Positions 26,010 through 33,559 of a stretch of 64,000 nucleotides of DNA are shown here, one piece after another. The position numbers and the translations under genes are program-made. The DNA is from Pseudomonas putida. GTDB taxonomy: Bacteria; Pseudomonadota; Gammaproteobacteria; Pseudomonadales; Pseudomonadaceae. Under the pieces are notes generated by a model. That model had not been told where the DNA came from. It did not search any database and saw nothing but the letters and a program-made list of their open reading frames with translations. The stretch spans positions 62,001-126,000 of the forward strand of contig CP124529.1 of NCBI GenBank assembly GCA_029953615.1. Reading direction: 5' to 3'. The number at the start of each line of letters is the position of its first letter. Positions within the stretch are counted from its first letter, which is position 1.

Positions 26010-26477
26010 ATGAAAAAAACCCTGGTAGCCGTGTTTGCGTGTGCTCTGGCATTCGGCGCAACGGCAATGTTACCTGCCGATATATCGCCGATGGGATCCG
26101 CATATGCCAAAGGTGGCGGCGGCGGTGGCGGTGGCGGTGGCGGTGGCGGCCACGGTGGTGGTGGCGGCCACGGCGGCGGCAATGGCGGTGGACGTGGTGC
26201 CGGCATGGGTGGTGGGCACAACGGCACTGGCAATGGTGCAGGCCTGGCGGGTGATCATGCCGGCAAGGCTACGCGCGATCACGGCGTGAGCGGCAAACAT
26301 TATGGAAGCTCACGCAACCAGGACAATGGCCACGGTACCACTACCTCAGGCATTGCCCAGTCCAAGGATACTCGCGGCTTGACGAAATCCACCGCTATGT
26401 CGGGTACTACACCCGGTGATCATAATGCCAAGGGGCTGAGCGGCGCGGTACAAAACTCTACGAAGAACGATCGATGA
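26010..26477 (+). CDS. Glycine-rich secreted protein (copy 1)
   Basis: 155-residue small exported protein. Signal peptide MKKTLVAVFACALAFGATAM..., probable cleavage near YAKG (about residue 34). Then comes a run of 13 Gly and Gly/His repeats (residues 35-70) encoded by a GGC/GGT repeat tract at about 26111-26165, then a Gly, Asn, His, Thr-rich tail. ATG 26010 follows TTGGAGGCGAAACAAC. Tandem paralogue at 26611. Function unknown; His-Gly repeats could bind metal. Confidence 0.75.
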   Translation: MKKTLVAVFACALAFGATAMLPADISPMGSAYAKGGGGGGGGGGGGGHGGGGGHGGGNGGGRGAGMGGGHNGTGNGAGLAGDHAGKATRDHGVSGKHYGSSRNQDNGHGTTTSGIAQSKDTRGLTKSTAMSGTTPGDHNAKGLSGAVQNSTKNDR

Positions 26478-26610
26478 GTGGAAGGCTGCCAGGTACTTTA
26501 GGTACCTGGCAGTCAACTGCGTCGAACGGTTGCGCACTGCGGAACTTAAGAGGCAACTTCATGTCGTATCCGCACCCAAGCTCCCCTGCGCCTTCTGGAG
26601 GCGAACAAAC

Positions 26611-26943
26611 ATGAAAAAAACCCTCGTAGCCGTCTTTACCTGTGCCCTGGCGTTCGGCGCAACTGCATTGTTGCCTGCTGATGTTTCGCCGATCGGCGCC
26701 GCATATGCCAAAGGTGGTGGCAACGGCGGCGGACACGGTGGTGGCAAGGGTGGCTTCAACGGCAATGGCGCCGGCTACGAGAGTGACCATGCCGGCAAGG
26801 CCACCCGCAACCATGGCGAAAGCGGCAATCACTATGGAAGCTTGCGCAACGATGACAACGGCCGTGGTACCACCCGGTCAGCCATTGCCAATTCCAAGGA
26901 GCACAACAAGCCAGGGCGCTCCTCTTCGAAGCATGGTTGGTAA
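26611..26943 (+). CDS. Glycine-rich secreted protein (copy 2)
   Basis: 110-residue paralogue of the preceding gene: near-identical signal peptide MKKTLVAVFTCALAFGATAL, the same YAKGGG junction, a shorter Gly/His region without the long Gly run, and the shared DHAGKATR-HG-SG-HYGS segment. The ribosome binding region (TGGAGGCGAACAAAC) is duplicated too, so the repeat unit includes regulatory DNA. Function unknown. Confidence 0.75.
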   Translation: MKKTLVAVFTCALAFGATALLPADVSPIGAAYAKGGGNGGGHGGGKGGFNGNGAGYESDHAGKATRNHGESGNHYGSLRNDDNGRGTTRSAIANSKEHNKPGRSSSKHGW

Positions 26944-28728: not shown

Positions 28729-28950
28729 GGCGATGATTTTTCTATTGGCTGATCAGCAGCTTTGCACCGAGGCTATCCTCATCGGCCGATGAAGTCGATG
28801 CTTTGCAGCCGCTCGCATTACCCGGTAAAGTCAGCGCCAGGGCGCTGGCTGCGCCTGCGGTCCGCGCGAAGGGGTTGCCCGAGCCATGCGCCATCACATT
28901 TCCATACCAGCTCCCGGCTTGTCGGCGGACCGAGCCCCAAAGGAGTTGGC

Positions 28951-30195
28951 ATGCCCACCATCAACGCATCCCGCCACCACGGACTGCTCGACCTCCCCGC
29001 CTTGCGCAAACGCGCCAAGCGCTTGCTCAGCGCCCTGAAAAACCACGCAGCCGACGACACCCGCGAGCAGCTACGCGCGCTCGGTTTGCCTGGCCCTGAC
29101 TACCGGCTTGCCGATACTCAATGGCTGGTGGCCCGCGAGGCCGGCTTTGCCAGCTGGCCCAAGCTCAAGGCGCATGCCGATGCCGTCGCTTTCGCGGCAC
29201 GCCACCCGGGCTTCACCGCCGATGACGAGGCTGCCGTGCAGCATTGGCGCTGCGGCAACGACATCGCCCACAGTTTGCGCACGGCCGGTTTTGCCGGTGC
29301 CTTCCAGATGTTCGACGACCCCATGGTCATGGGGCCCGTGCCCGCATTGCCCGAGCAGCAGTATTGGCAGGTCCGCACCGCTTACCTACAGCAGGCGTTC
29401 AACCTGGGCGCCGAGGACATCGAGCAGCGCCAAGCGGCACAGCGCAGCGCCCTGGCCGGGTTGAACAGTGACAGCAAGCTCGTGCTGTGGTGCGAGGGTG
29501 ACGCTTACGACCAGCTGTTCCTGATCCGCGTGCTTGCGAGCCTGCCCAGCCTGCCGCGCCGGTTGGAGCTGATCGAAATCAGCCAGGTACCTGGCGTCGA
29601 GCGCTTCATCGGTATCGGCCAGCTGGCCCCGGACCTGCTTGCCTGGCTATGGCCGCAACGTCGCGCGCTGGGTGAGGAGGCACTGGCACTGGCCCGCCAG
29701 GTCTGGGCGGCCTATACCGCGCCTGACCCGAGGGGCTGGGCTGCCCTGGCGGGCCTCCAGCATGCGGCGTTGCCGTTGCTGGGCCGGGCCCTGGCGCGGC
29801 AACTGCAGGAACTGCCGGGGGCGAACGACGGTTTGAGTCTCACGGAGCGCCTGCTGTTGCGCGTTCTGGCGTCACGCGGCGAGCTGCCGGCCGGACGTGT
29901 GTTTGCCCAGTTGATGATGGAGGATGAACCGCTGCCTTACCTGGGCGACCTGATGTTCCATGTTCTGCTGCAGCCTCTGATCCATGCGCCGCACCCGCTG
30001 CTGCTGGAGGGCCCGGGCGAGTCCTGGGCACAACGGCCGTTGCGGCTGACCGCGCTTGCCGAACAGGTGCTCGCCGGGCAGGCGCACTGGCTTGACCACA
30101 GCCCTGCGCCGCGCTGGGTGGGCGGAGTGCTTGTCGAGGCCGCGGACAGGCCCTGGGTAGTCAGCGAACAAGGCGAAGTGTGGCAGCGCAAATAG
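28951..30195 (+). CDS. DUF1835-type hypothetical protein
   Basis: 414-residue soluble protein. The first 60 residues (LRKRAKRLLSALKNH..., TQWLVAREAGFASWPKLKAHAD) match a module often placed before ankyrin or DUF1835 domains. The centre contains VLWCEGDAYDQLFLIRVLASL, the DUF1835 pattern. No catalytic residues are recognised. ATG 28951 has AAAGGAG 5 nt upstream; the longer open frame starting in the LysR promoter region is rejected. No operon partners. Confidence 0.75.
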   Translation: MPTINASRHHGLLDLPALRKRAKRLLSALKNHAADDTREQLRALGLPGPDYRLADTQWLVAREAGFASWPKLKAHADAVAFAARHPGFTADDEAAVQHWRCGNDIAHSLRTAGFAGAFQMFDDPMVMGPVPALPEQQYWQVRTAYLQQAFNLGAEDIEQRQAAQRSALAGLNSDSKLVLWCEGDAYDQLFLIRVLASLPSLPRRLELIEISQVPGVERFIGIGQLAPDLLAWLWPQRRALGEEALALARQVWAAYTAPDPRGWAALAGLQHAALPLLGRALARQLQELPGANDGLSLTERLLLRVLASRGELPAGRVFAQLMMEDEPLPYLGDLMFHVLLQPLIHAPHPLLLEGPGESWAQRPLRLTALAEQVLAGQAHWLDHSPAPRWVGGVLVEAADRPWVVSEQGEVWQRK

Positions 30196-30230
30196 CCTGC
30201 TCAAGCCTGGTCAGGCAACGCGGTGGATGG

Positions 30231-30274
30231 CACCGGCTGCGCCGGTGATCGCCGGCAAGCCAGCTCCCACAGGG
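30231..30274. repeat. Single REP unit
   Basis: GATCGCCGGCAAGCCAGC followed by TCCCACAGGG, preceded by a small GC-rich hairpin (CACCGGCTGCGCCGGTG). It is in the 155-bp gap between the DUF1835-type gene and the ferredoxin-peptidase fusion. Confidence 0.65.
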
Positions 30275-30350
30275 ATTAAGCTAGCCTTCGGAGCTTGAGC
30301 AAGGCCGGTGCTCCTGGCAACAATCGAACCTTCACTCGCCCGAGGTACCC

Positions 30351-32039
30351 ATGCACCATCGCCACGTCATTGAATTGTCGCCCTCGGGCAAAACCTTCGA
30401 CGCCAGCCAGGAGTTGCTGCTCGATGCCATGCTTGCCAGCGGCCTACCGGTGCCTTTCTCCTGCCGCCGCGGTGCCTGCGGGTCGTGCAAGGTCAAGGTG
30501 CTGTCAGGACAGTACCGGGACACGCAGCGGGCGGCAGACACGCCCGCGCCCTGCTACCCTCTGGCAGCTGACGAAATGTTGCTGTGCCAGAGCCACGCCT
30601 GCACTGACATGTGCCTGGAAATTCCCGGCTGGTCCCTGGACACGCCGGCACTGGAAATCCACGCACAGGTTCGTGGCAAACGCGACCTTAGCGCCGATAT
30701 CGTCGAACTGGTGCTGCAGCCTGCACAACCATTGGCGGTACGGGCGGGCCAATACGTACGCTTCCGGCTCGACAACGGCGACAGCCGCTGTTTCTCCATC
30801 GCCAACCTGCCCGCCCAGGACCAGGGGCAACTGGTGTTTCACATCCGCAAGGTCAGGGGCGGCCTGTTTACCGAACACCTGCTGCCAACCCTGCAGGCAG
30901 GTGACACCTTGAAGCTCGAAGGGCCGGTGGGTGCCTGCACCTGGCAGCACGAGGGCCAGCGCCCACTGGTGCTGTTCGCCACCGGTACGGGTTACGCCGG
31001 CATCAAGCCATTGCTGTTGACCGCCCTGGCAGGCGATGCCGAGGTCACGTTGTACTGGGGTGGCAGATCGAACGCGGACTTCTATGACCGTGAGTTTCTC
31101 GACCAGGCCAGCCGTGCACACGCTCACTTTCACTGGCACCCGGTGCTGTCGGACCAGGCGCGGGTGCAGCAGCTGGCGCTGGCCCAGGCCCATCGCTGGG
31201 CCGACACCCAGGTCTATGCCTGCGGCAATGCCGCGATGATCCGCCAGGCGCGCGAACAGTGCCTCGCGGCGGGCCTGCAGCCCCATCACTTTGTCGCCGA
31301 GGCTTTCGTTGCCAGCGGCGCACTGGCGCCCGAAGCGTCAACAGCCAGGCCATTGCACCCGGCGCTGGAAAAGGTCGGCCCGCGCTACTCGCCGGACGGT
31401 ATGCTCGCGGCGCGCGAGCAGTCGGTACGGGCCGTGGCGGCGATCGCCAGCCAGCTACAAGTCGGCATGACCACCGCCCAGGCGCTGGAGATGGCCGGGC
31501 AAACCTTGCAGGCGATGGGCGCGTCGCACACCTGGCACCCCACCTACATCCGTTTTGGCGACGACACCATACGCACGCCGCGCCAAGGCATCGATCTGCA
31601 ACGTACATTACGGCCCACGGATATCGTCGTGGTCGATGTCGGCCCGGTGTGGGATGGTTATGAGGGCGACTATGGCGACACCTTCGTGTTTGGCCAGCAT
31701 GAGCTGCACCACGCCTGCGTCAAGGCGCTGCATGAAGTGTTCGAGGAAACCCGCCAGGCCTGGGGCCGTGGCCTGACCGGGCGCGAACTGTATGATTTCG
31801 CCGAGCGCAGTGCCCAGGCAAAAGGCTGGCAGCTGGAGCGCAACCTGGCCGGGCATCGCATCGCCGACTTCCCGCATGTTCTGTATGGGCAAGACAAACT
31901 GGCCGAGGTCGAAATCGTCCCGAGCGAGGTGGTGTGGGTGCTGGAGATTCAGTTGTGCCACCCTACCGAACCGGTCGGGGCGTTTTTCGAGGATATCCTG
32001 GTCGGTGAAGTCGCCCTGGCGCGCTCCTTGACCCAGTAA
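30351..32039 (+). CDS. Ferredoxin-NAD(P)H reductase fused to an M24 (Xaa-Pro aminopeptidase-like) domain
   Basis: 562-residue three-part protein. Residues 1-95: plant-type 2Fe-2S ferredoxin with C38, C43, C46 and C79 (CRRGACGSC). Residues about 100-320: FAD/NAD reductase of the benzoate/methane-monooxygenase reductase type (RFRLDNGDSRCFSIANLP for FAD, FATGTGYAGIKP for NAD(P)H, VYACGNAAMI). Residues about 335-562: M24 pita-bread fold with likely metal ligands D429 and D440 or D443 (VVVDVG...YEGDYGDTF), a His near HRIADFPH, and Glu in WVLEIQL and FFEDILV. ATG 30351 follows GAGGTACCC. I do not know this combination as a characterised enzyme; substrate unknown. Confidence 0.85.
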   Translation: MHHRHVIELSPSGKTFDASQELLLDAMLASGLPVPFSCRRGACGSCKVKVLSGQYRDTQRAADTPAPCYPLAADEMLLCQSHACTDMCLEIPGWSLDTPALEIHAQVRGKRDLSADIVELVLQPAQPLAVRAGQYVRFRLDNGDSRCFSIANLPAQDQGQLVFHIRKVRGGLFTEHLLPTLQAGDTLKLEGPVGACTWQHEGQRPLVLFATGTGYAGIKPLLLTALAGDAEVTLYWGGRSNADFYDREFLDQASRAHAHFHWHPVLSDQARVQQLALAQAHRWADTQVYACGNAAMIRQAREQCLAAGLQPHHFVAEAFVASGALAPEASTARPLHPALEKVGPRYSPDGMLAAREQSVRAVAAIASQLQVGMTTAQALEMAGQTLQAMGASHTWHPTYIRFGDDTIRTPRQGIDLQRTLRPTDIVVVDVGPVWDGYEGDYGDTFVFGQHELHHACVKALHEVFEETRQAWGRGLTGRELYDFAERSAQAKGWQLERNLAGHRIADFPHVLYGQDKLAEVEIVPSEVVWVLEIQLCHPTEPVGAFFEDILVGEVALARSLTQ

Positions 32040-32050
32040 CAGGCCGCCAC

Positions 32051-32296
32051 GTGGCGATGCTGTTCATTGCACCAGGCAGGCAACGGCAAGGCATCGGCGC
32101 GCGCCTCATGAGCGCCGCGCTCGAACATGCCAGGGCTGAAATCGTCACGGTCAGGGCATCGTTGTCTTCCGTGCCGGCCTACCAGCGCTACGGTTTCAAC
32201 CTGGCAGGTCAAGTTGGCGAGTTCGCCGGACTGACCTACCAGCCGATGGAAATGCCCCTGCGGCCACGTGCTGCCGCCGCCTCAGGCGCCGAGTGA
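32051..32296 (+). pseudogene. GNAT acetyltransferase, C-terminal fragment
   Basis: 81 codons covering only the acetyl-CoA-binding half of a GNAT protein: APGRQRQGIGARLMSAALEHA is motif A (Q/RxxGxG/A), then VPAYQRYGF is motif B. The N-terminal half of the fold is absent: the previous gene ends 11 bp upstream. The 3' end overlaps the convergent DapA-like gene by 15 bp. Probably a remnant; a functional short protein from GTG 32051 or ATG 32057 is less likely. Confidence 0.6.
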
Positions 32297-33501: not shown

Positions 33502-33559
33502 ACCTGTGGGCAAGCCCGCGAACACCGGCGCAGCCGGTGCCATCGACCGGTGCCACAGG
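33502..33559. repeat. Degenerate REP unit at the end of the cellulose operon
   Basis: CCTGTGGGCAAGCCCGCGAA followed by a GC-rich hairpin (CACCGGCGCAGCCGGTG) immediately downstream of bcsC. It can fold in the operon's 3' transcript. Confidence 0.55.

Follow-up and report, generated by a model that had tools for sequence, protein, structure and literature searches.

The M24 family (PF00557) is large, and its members, which include methionine aminopeptidase (MetAP), prolidase, and aminopeptidase P, are by default read as peptidases. Canonical members carry a catalytic His approximately 17 to 18 residues ahead of the first metal-binding Asp, as exemplified by H79 in Escherichia coli MetAP and H243 in aminopeptidase P. 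We know of no redox enzyme with the M24 fold and of no member that is fed with electrons. The HD-domain hydrolase fold, whose dinuclear iron members myo-inositol oxygenase and PhnZ proved to be oxygenases, is unrelated to M24 and offers a precedent only. To our knowledge, the DMSP lyase DddP is not linked to a reductase. This enzyme has the M24 fold and, as reported, a binuclear site occupied mainly by iron and a non-peptidase chemistry (PMC4108388). Our literature searches yielded no publication that joins an M24 metallopeptidase with a 2Fe-2S protein or a ferredoxin reductase. The terms pita-bread and oxygenase together retrieved only work on PepQ folding, aminopeptidase P, and thermostability in the portions of the literature available.

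Reductases of the BenC, GcoB, and T4moF type have an oxygenase as their partner. The gene examined here lies in a 64,000-nucleotide stretch of Pseudomonas putida DNA (hereafter the window) and encodes a reductase of this type whose same-chain partner is instead an M24 domain.

The fused gene and its relatives

The original prediction of a 2Fe-2S reductase joined to an M24 domain is borne out by a single uninterrupted ORF, in which an Fer2-FAD-NAD reductase is followed by a C-terminal M24 "pita-bread" domain.

30351..32039, + strand: fused ORF, 562 aa, 2Fe-2S ferredoxin/FAD/NAD reductase plus M24; fusion matched in 80/80 retained loci
30375..30599, + strand: Fer2 domain, residues 9-83, with cluster Cys 38, 43, 46, and 79
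30666..30941, + strand: FAD-binding domain, residues 106-197, with Foldseek/VIA matches to GcoB, BenC, and T4moF
30975..31253, + strand: NAD-binding domain, residues 209-301, with GTG and CGN motifs
31311..31388, + strand: low-confidence linker from reductase to M24, residues 321-346, pLDDT <50
31398..32003, + strand: M24 pita-bread domain, residues 350-551

Domain and motif matches also confirm that the predicted electron-transfer chain is intact, given that the 2Fe-2S Cys, FAD, and NAD motifs of a BenC/GcoB-type oxygenase reductase are all found. The reductase half groups with the oxygenase reductases GcoB, BenC, and T4moF, and the fusion scores 129.8 bits against the BenC equivalog NF040810, below its cut-off of 430. 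The C-terminal part is assigned to M24 by a PF00557 score over the cut-off and by its pita-bread fold. VIA matches for the full-length AF2 model cover the reductase half only and have no bearing on structural relatives of the M24 domain. The position of the reductase arm is not fixed by this model (pTM 0.55), in which segments 37-39 and 505-526 also have pLDDT <50. A docking of Fer2 on M24 read from the model was discarded as unusable on account of these values.

The same single-frame fusion is present in all of the best 80 of 129 matching loci in genome_contigs, at 44-94% identity and with retained frames of 540-584 aa; L084 alone diverges past approximately residue 524 and continues to the contig end. 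These loci belong to Pseudomonas, Herbaspirillum, Collimonas, Duganella, Achromobacter, Variovorax, and Roseateles, and one comes from a record titled Pantoea. Within the genus of the window, 33 of 249 genomes match the fusion over nearly its full length at E 1e-150 or better. One stop is counted in 10 of these 33 rows, and in the one inspected (G017) it is the natural end. All four Pfam domains are found in 116 of 120 proteins among the matches listed (120 of 270, read from the table). None of 145 matching plasmid records covers at least 80% of the query, and no fused copy occurs among the 40 listed, whose matches fall on the reductase half (H23 extends to residue 382).

Whole-gene dN/dS values are 0.09-0.15 (11 pairs). 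Stronger purifying selection acts on the M24 half, which is the more conserved half; in comparisons with the more distant L030 and L034, dN/dS is 0.05-0.06 for the M24 part and approximately 0.14 for the reductase part.

The M24 active site

The plausible metal ligands noted in the original prediction are indeed retained, and the set D, D, H, E, and E is invariant among 80 sequences.

31635..31637, + strand: metal ligand D429, invariant, aligns with the MetAP Asp
31668..31670, + strand: metal ligand D440 in the subfamily motif E-G-D, invariant, aligns with MetAP
31854..31856, + strand: metal ligand H502 in GHRxxDFPH, with H509 seven residues on, invariant, aligns with MetAP
31944..31946, + strand: metal ligand E532 (WVLEIQ), invariant, assigned by spacing alone, canonical equivalent unaligned
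31989..31991, + strand: metal ligand E547 (FFEDIL), invariant, aligns with four canonical M24s of the same genome

Most members of this subfamily have no counterpart of the catalytic His that typifies M24 enzymes (it is present in no more than 39 of 393 relatives). We gathered 397 sequences with redundancy kept, of which 393 were scorable; 33 have a His 16 to 19 residues ahead of the first Asp, 6 have one at -20, and at least 354 have none at the canonical catalytic position. The window protein likewise has no His at the canonical catalytic positions before the first Asp. Four control M24s of the same genome have theirs at -17, -17, -18, and -20, and a fifth was left unscored because the pattern matched the wrong place. 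The proposal that the M24 part is an Xaa-Pro hydrolase is therefore weakened. A creatinase-like amidinohydrolase, which had also been suggested, is unlikely because creatinase is not known to have the metal ligands. Standalone relatives of this M24 are only approximately 215-240 aa and therefore have no space for an N-terminal creatinase-type domain.

Compared with canonical M24s, the subfamily has its own motifs W-H, E-G-D, and GHRxxDFPH, and a 2Fe-2S reductase is attached or adjoining in part of it. W-H (or F-H) precedes the first Asp in 389 of 393 relatives, and GHRxxDFP is found in 388. The next residue is His in 383 of those 388, such that the second active-site His, seven residues past the ligand His, is kept. 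E438, two residues ahead of D440, is invariant in the 80 sequences and missing from the four canonical M24s of the same genome. DddP has an extra ligand, Asp297, reported two residues past the first Asp (PMC4108388), whereas Gly431 occupies this place here. On the basis of these sequence patterns, we infer an old metal site with altered chemistry.

Layouts, phylogeny, and gene neighborhoods

The strongest new fact is that one M24 branch is recurrently coupled to 2Fe-2S reductases in several layouts. Other ARRANGEMENTS were searched in 349 genomes of f39, a family in the same class that is probably Burkholderiaceae, and the M24 part of the subfamily matched in 82 of these, nearly always over the M24 part alone. 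At five loci (L168, L172, L199, L200, and L202), a FAD-NAD-Fer2 reductase gene lies directly upstream of the M24 gene and is co-directional with it, the domain order being read from Pfam for L172 and L200 and, for all five, from a Cys motif that follows the GTG motif. A MocR sequence adjoins each of these split pairs, in two frames in L168. The reductase directly ahead of the M24 gene in L205 (L205:7783-9138) has a Cys motif at both ends (Fer2-FAD-NAD-Fer2) and may connect the two reductase layouts. In L195, a reductase lies ahead of an M24 frame broken by a stop. Short Fer2-M24 proteins without FAD and NAD domains also occur (P0144, P0147, and P0150, approximately 87% alike, and P0152, which stands apart), and therefore the cluster stays with M24 in these forms. 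Five genomes have MocR and M24 with no adjoining reductase (L162, L164, L166, L173, and L151). Among 30 loci from the f39 search, 1 is fused, 3 are split, and 26 are without a reductase in short flanks.

A single clade of reductase-coupled M24s is rejected on a 53-row M24 tree (p-AU 4.5e-79; 1.6e-7 without L205), with groups for the AU tests named once a first tree had been seen. On this tree, which was reduced from 73 rows by dropping 14 of the 25 fused rows along with six standalone rows on long branches, the coupling label undergoes 4 state changes, and a quick tree of all 73 rows agrees with it. Because a single coupled clade is rejected, coupling must have been gained or lost repeatedly. 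Fused copies form one clade (100/100) on a 31-row reductase tree, and a single fused plus splitC clade is not rejected there (p-AU 0.115; 0.090 with L205). Separate recruitment of the reductase itself is thus not supported by this tree.

A divergent MocR-type gene lies just upstream of the fusion in 80/80 loci. Its start is about 70-240 bp from that of the fusion (72-242; 78-80 bp in 46 of the 80), where MocR starts are extrapolated from the tblastn match (for L096 the match is only 105 residues and the contig ends). Two MocR subfamilies, only approximately 28-31% alike, account for 61 and 19 loci, and one example of each (L018 and L091) has a GntR HTH (PF00392) and an aminotransferase domain (PF00155) over the cut-off. 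No other neighbor cluster is present in more than 21 of 83 clustered loci when neighbors are grouped by similarity without gene-by-gene annotation, and these clusters seem to reflect synteny confined to a single Pseudomonas group. A DUF1835-domain protein is encoded at window positions 28762-30195, and in genomes of the P. putida type its gene adjoins the pair of MocR and fusion at 8 of the clustered loci.

Three kinds of oxygenase probe, each of which recovers its positive-control loci, were applied to the fused and split loci (11 of the 80 fused loci have a flank of <5 kb on one side). The Phenol_Hydrox and Haem_oxygenas_2 probes match at 0/80 fused and 0/6 split loci. The Rieske probe returns nothing in 79/80 fused and 6/6 split loci; the remaining locus, L095, has a weak match of 79-80 residues 6 kb from the gene start. 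The survey suggested with the original prediction has thus established that the fusion recurs (80/80), but a nearby oxygenase partner of the BenC/GcoB type is absent for the three probed kinds apart from the weak, partial match in L095. No such reductase turned up in the 1.5-kb flanks of the remaining five M24 genes in the window genome.

The surroundings of 13 standalone reductase relatives were also read (L207-L212, L214-L217, and L219-L221, leaving aside L213 and the unannotated L218), and 7 of the 13 are near a terminal oxygenase or a diiron-oxidase-like protein. These partners are Phenol_Hydrox proteins near L209 (in the window's own genome) and L214, Rieske oxygenases near L211, L212, and L220 and, by annotation, L221, and a Haem_oxygenas_2 protein near L219. 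For the other 6, no such partner was established, with Pfam run on part of their neighbors. An oxygenase is thus often the end point of this type of reductase, and within the fusion it is the M24 domain that comes closest to filling that role. The relative at L219:2130-5993, on a Caballeronia plasmid, is near genes for a heme-oxygenase-like iron protein, an aldehyde dehydrogenase, and an ornithine cyclodeaminase-family protein.

The window strain has lost the regulator along with roughly half of the promoter region. Relative to L027, the losses and remnants on the two sides of the fusion are as follows.

30240..30316, no strand: 77-bp scar at the place of the divergent L027 MocR gene, with 1,676 bp lost relative to L027
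30317..30350, + strand: 34 bp left of the 78-bp L027 intergenic region ahead of the fusion start
32011..32040, no strand: second scar; 938 bp of L027 missing, and the C-terminal tail of the fusion replaced
32051..32296, + strand: 81-aa C-terminal remnant of a gene with a longer L027 counterpart, GNAT-like on visual inspection

The upstream scar contains repeat-like sequence, and the loss there comprises the MocR gene and 44 of 78 intergenic bases; the downstream loss takes part of the GNAT-like gene and a reverse-strand ORF. No cognate MocR turned up in the rest of the window genome, where long matches are only 25-34% identical. The fusion ORF is intact and constrained in this strain, yet its expression may be altered. 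Repeat-like extragenic sequence at window positions 30216-30274 and 33516-33543, which we take to resemble REP elements, has further matches at several sites in L028 and L029. At 26010-26943, two adjoining, similar, glycine-rich ORFs of 155 and 137 aa look secreted.

Candidate functions of the fusion

We tentatively favor, at somewhat less than an even chance, the proposal that the fusion is a self-sufficient redox metalloenzyme that acts on an amino compound, with its M24 domain serving as electron acceptor. NADH would reduce the FAD, and electrons would pass on to the 2Fe-2S cluster, consistent with the cofactor sites in the sequence. The cluster, carried on a mobile reductase arm, might then reduce a dinuclear metal site of the M24 domain, where the metal is probably iron. 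At this site, a small amino or amide compound, for which a gamma-glutamyl amine is one candidate, could undergo a redox reaction that most plausibly requires O2. The divergent MocR/PLP regulator of relatives, which is gone in the window strain, would be expected from its family to sense an amine or amino acid.

The M24 domain is proposed as electron acceptor because its pairing with a reductase recurs in different layouts and the M24 tree rejects all coupled M24s as one clade, because the three kinds of probe place no terminal oxygenase beside the gene apart from the weak L095 match and MocR is its sole conserved neighbor, and because 7/13 standalone reductase relatives lie near an oxygenase or diiron-oxidase-like protein. 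It is also favored by five invariant ligands combined with a mostly missing catalytic His, by the stronger purifying selection on the M24 part, by the lack of such a reductase in the 1.5-kb flanks of the remaining five M24 genes in this genome, and by the example of DddP. Arguing against this reading, most standalone M24 relatives are without an adjoining reductase (26/30 loci, short flanks), the AF2 model leaves the place of the reductase arm unfixed, the reductase tree does not reject one fused plus splitC clade, the M24 ligand set is the same as in hydrolases, and no redox enzyme with this fold is known to us. Rather more doubtful is a specific version, in which these proteins would form a dinuclear iron oxygenase/oxidase branch of the M24 fold that is self-sufficient here and two-component in the split loci, directs O2 attack at an amino or gamma-glutamyl-amide compound, and is under MocR control.

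The same evidence for coupling would also suit a ferrous M24 hydrolase or lyase whose Fe(III) is re-reduced by the reductase, which would keep the enzyme active or tie it to the NADH level, and the reported iron content of DddP (PMC4108388) is in keeping with this idea. We judge it unlikely, given that the genome's remaining five M24 genes manage without such a reductase in their 1.5-kb flanks, and given that repeated coupling of a full NADH chain merely for upkeep looks costly.

Perhaps the reductase half instead serves an oxygenase encoded elsewhere while the M24 domain hydrolyzes the product, an amide or dipeptide, so that the fusion channels two steps. The grouping with GcoB, BenC, and T4moF, the hydrolase-like fold and ligands of M24, and the amidase gene that follows M24 in L168 would be accommodated. 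However, the three kinds of oxygenase probe reveal only the weak L095 match at fused or split loci, Fer2 stays with M24 in short forms that have no FAD or NAD domain, and the canonical catalytic His is mostly missing, which makes a bifunctional enzyme of this sort unlikely.

Non-enzymatic M24-fold proteins occur in eukaryotes, and the original prediction had allowed for a module that binds the oxygenase partner. A non-catalytic scaffold or docking role is nevertheless very hard to reconcile with five invariant ligands, a mostly kept H509, and a lower dN/dS in the M24 half, and it finds no support among the neighbors, which include no conserved partner gene and no oxygenase beyond the weak L095 match. 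Finally, although loci with split reductase and M24 genes do exist, the concern attached to the original prediction, namely that most relatives have separate genes that a lost stop codon joined here, is refuted, together with an annotation or assembly artifact, by single frames in all 80 retained loci across 44-94% identity, by the fusion in 33/249 genus genomes, by purifying selection, and by the different domain order of the reductase in split loci, and retains practically no probability.

The surrounding genes offer hints regarding the substrate. Characterized MocR regulators bind PLP, and their known or predicted regulons concern PLP, GABA, taurine, and ectoine (PMC5320631); the words "M24" and "peptidase" are absent from the main text of that paper. 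Gamma-glutamyl-handling enzymes of three unrelated kinds adjoin this M24 in four lineages. A gamma-glutamyltransferase is beside M24 in the five MocR-M24 genomes, and a different one (29% identical) adjoins the fused gene in L174. Five genomes from the family to which the window belongs encode a GGACT-type protein next to the standalone M24 (Pfam applied to two of them), and a class-I GATase is within 7 kb in 4/5 split loci and within the 20-kb stretch of the fifth. With the queries used, none of the three kinds is found at the remaining standalone loci or within 7 kb of the 80 fused genome_contigs loci, and because of the latter result we treat the gamma-glutamyl theme as a lead only.

In L172, L200, and L202, an amino acid permease and a class-I GATase are common to the cluster of MocR, reductase, and M24, and this set looks like a complete catabolic cluster. 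Aniline-type systems, in which a GAT-like protein and a reductase act on gamma-glutamylated amines (PMC11335346), provide a comparison. The aniline and 1-naphthylamine dioxygenase systems (AtdA and NpaA) resemble the split loci, which have a reductase and a GATase, but differ in that their terminal component is a Rieske oxygenase rather than M24.

If the M24 domain does accept electrons, then part of the M24 family would be misannotated and would carry out redox chemistry. If it also activates O2 at a dinuclear iron site, the fold would represent a new scaffold for diiron oxygen chemistry. Because the fusion is a single-gene unit beside one regulator, the question of its substrate is directly testable.
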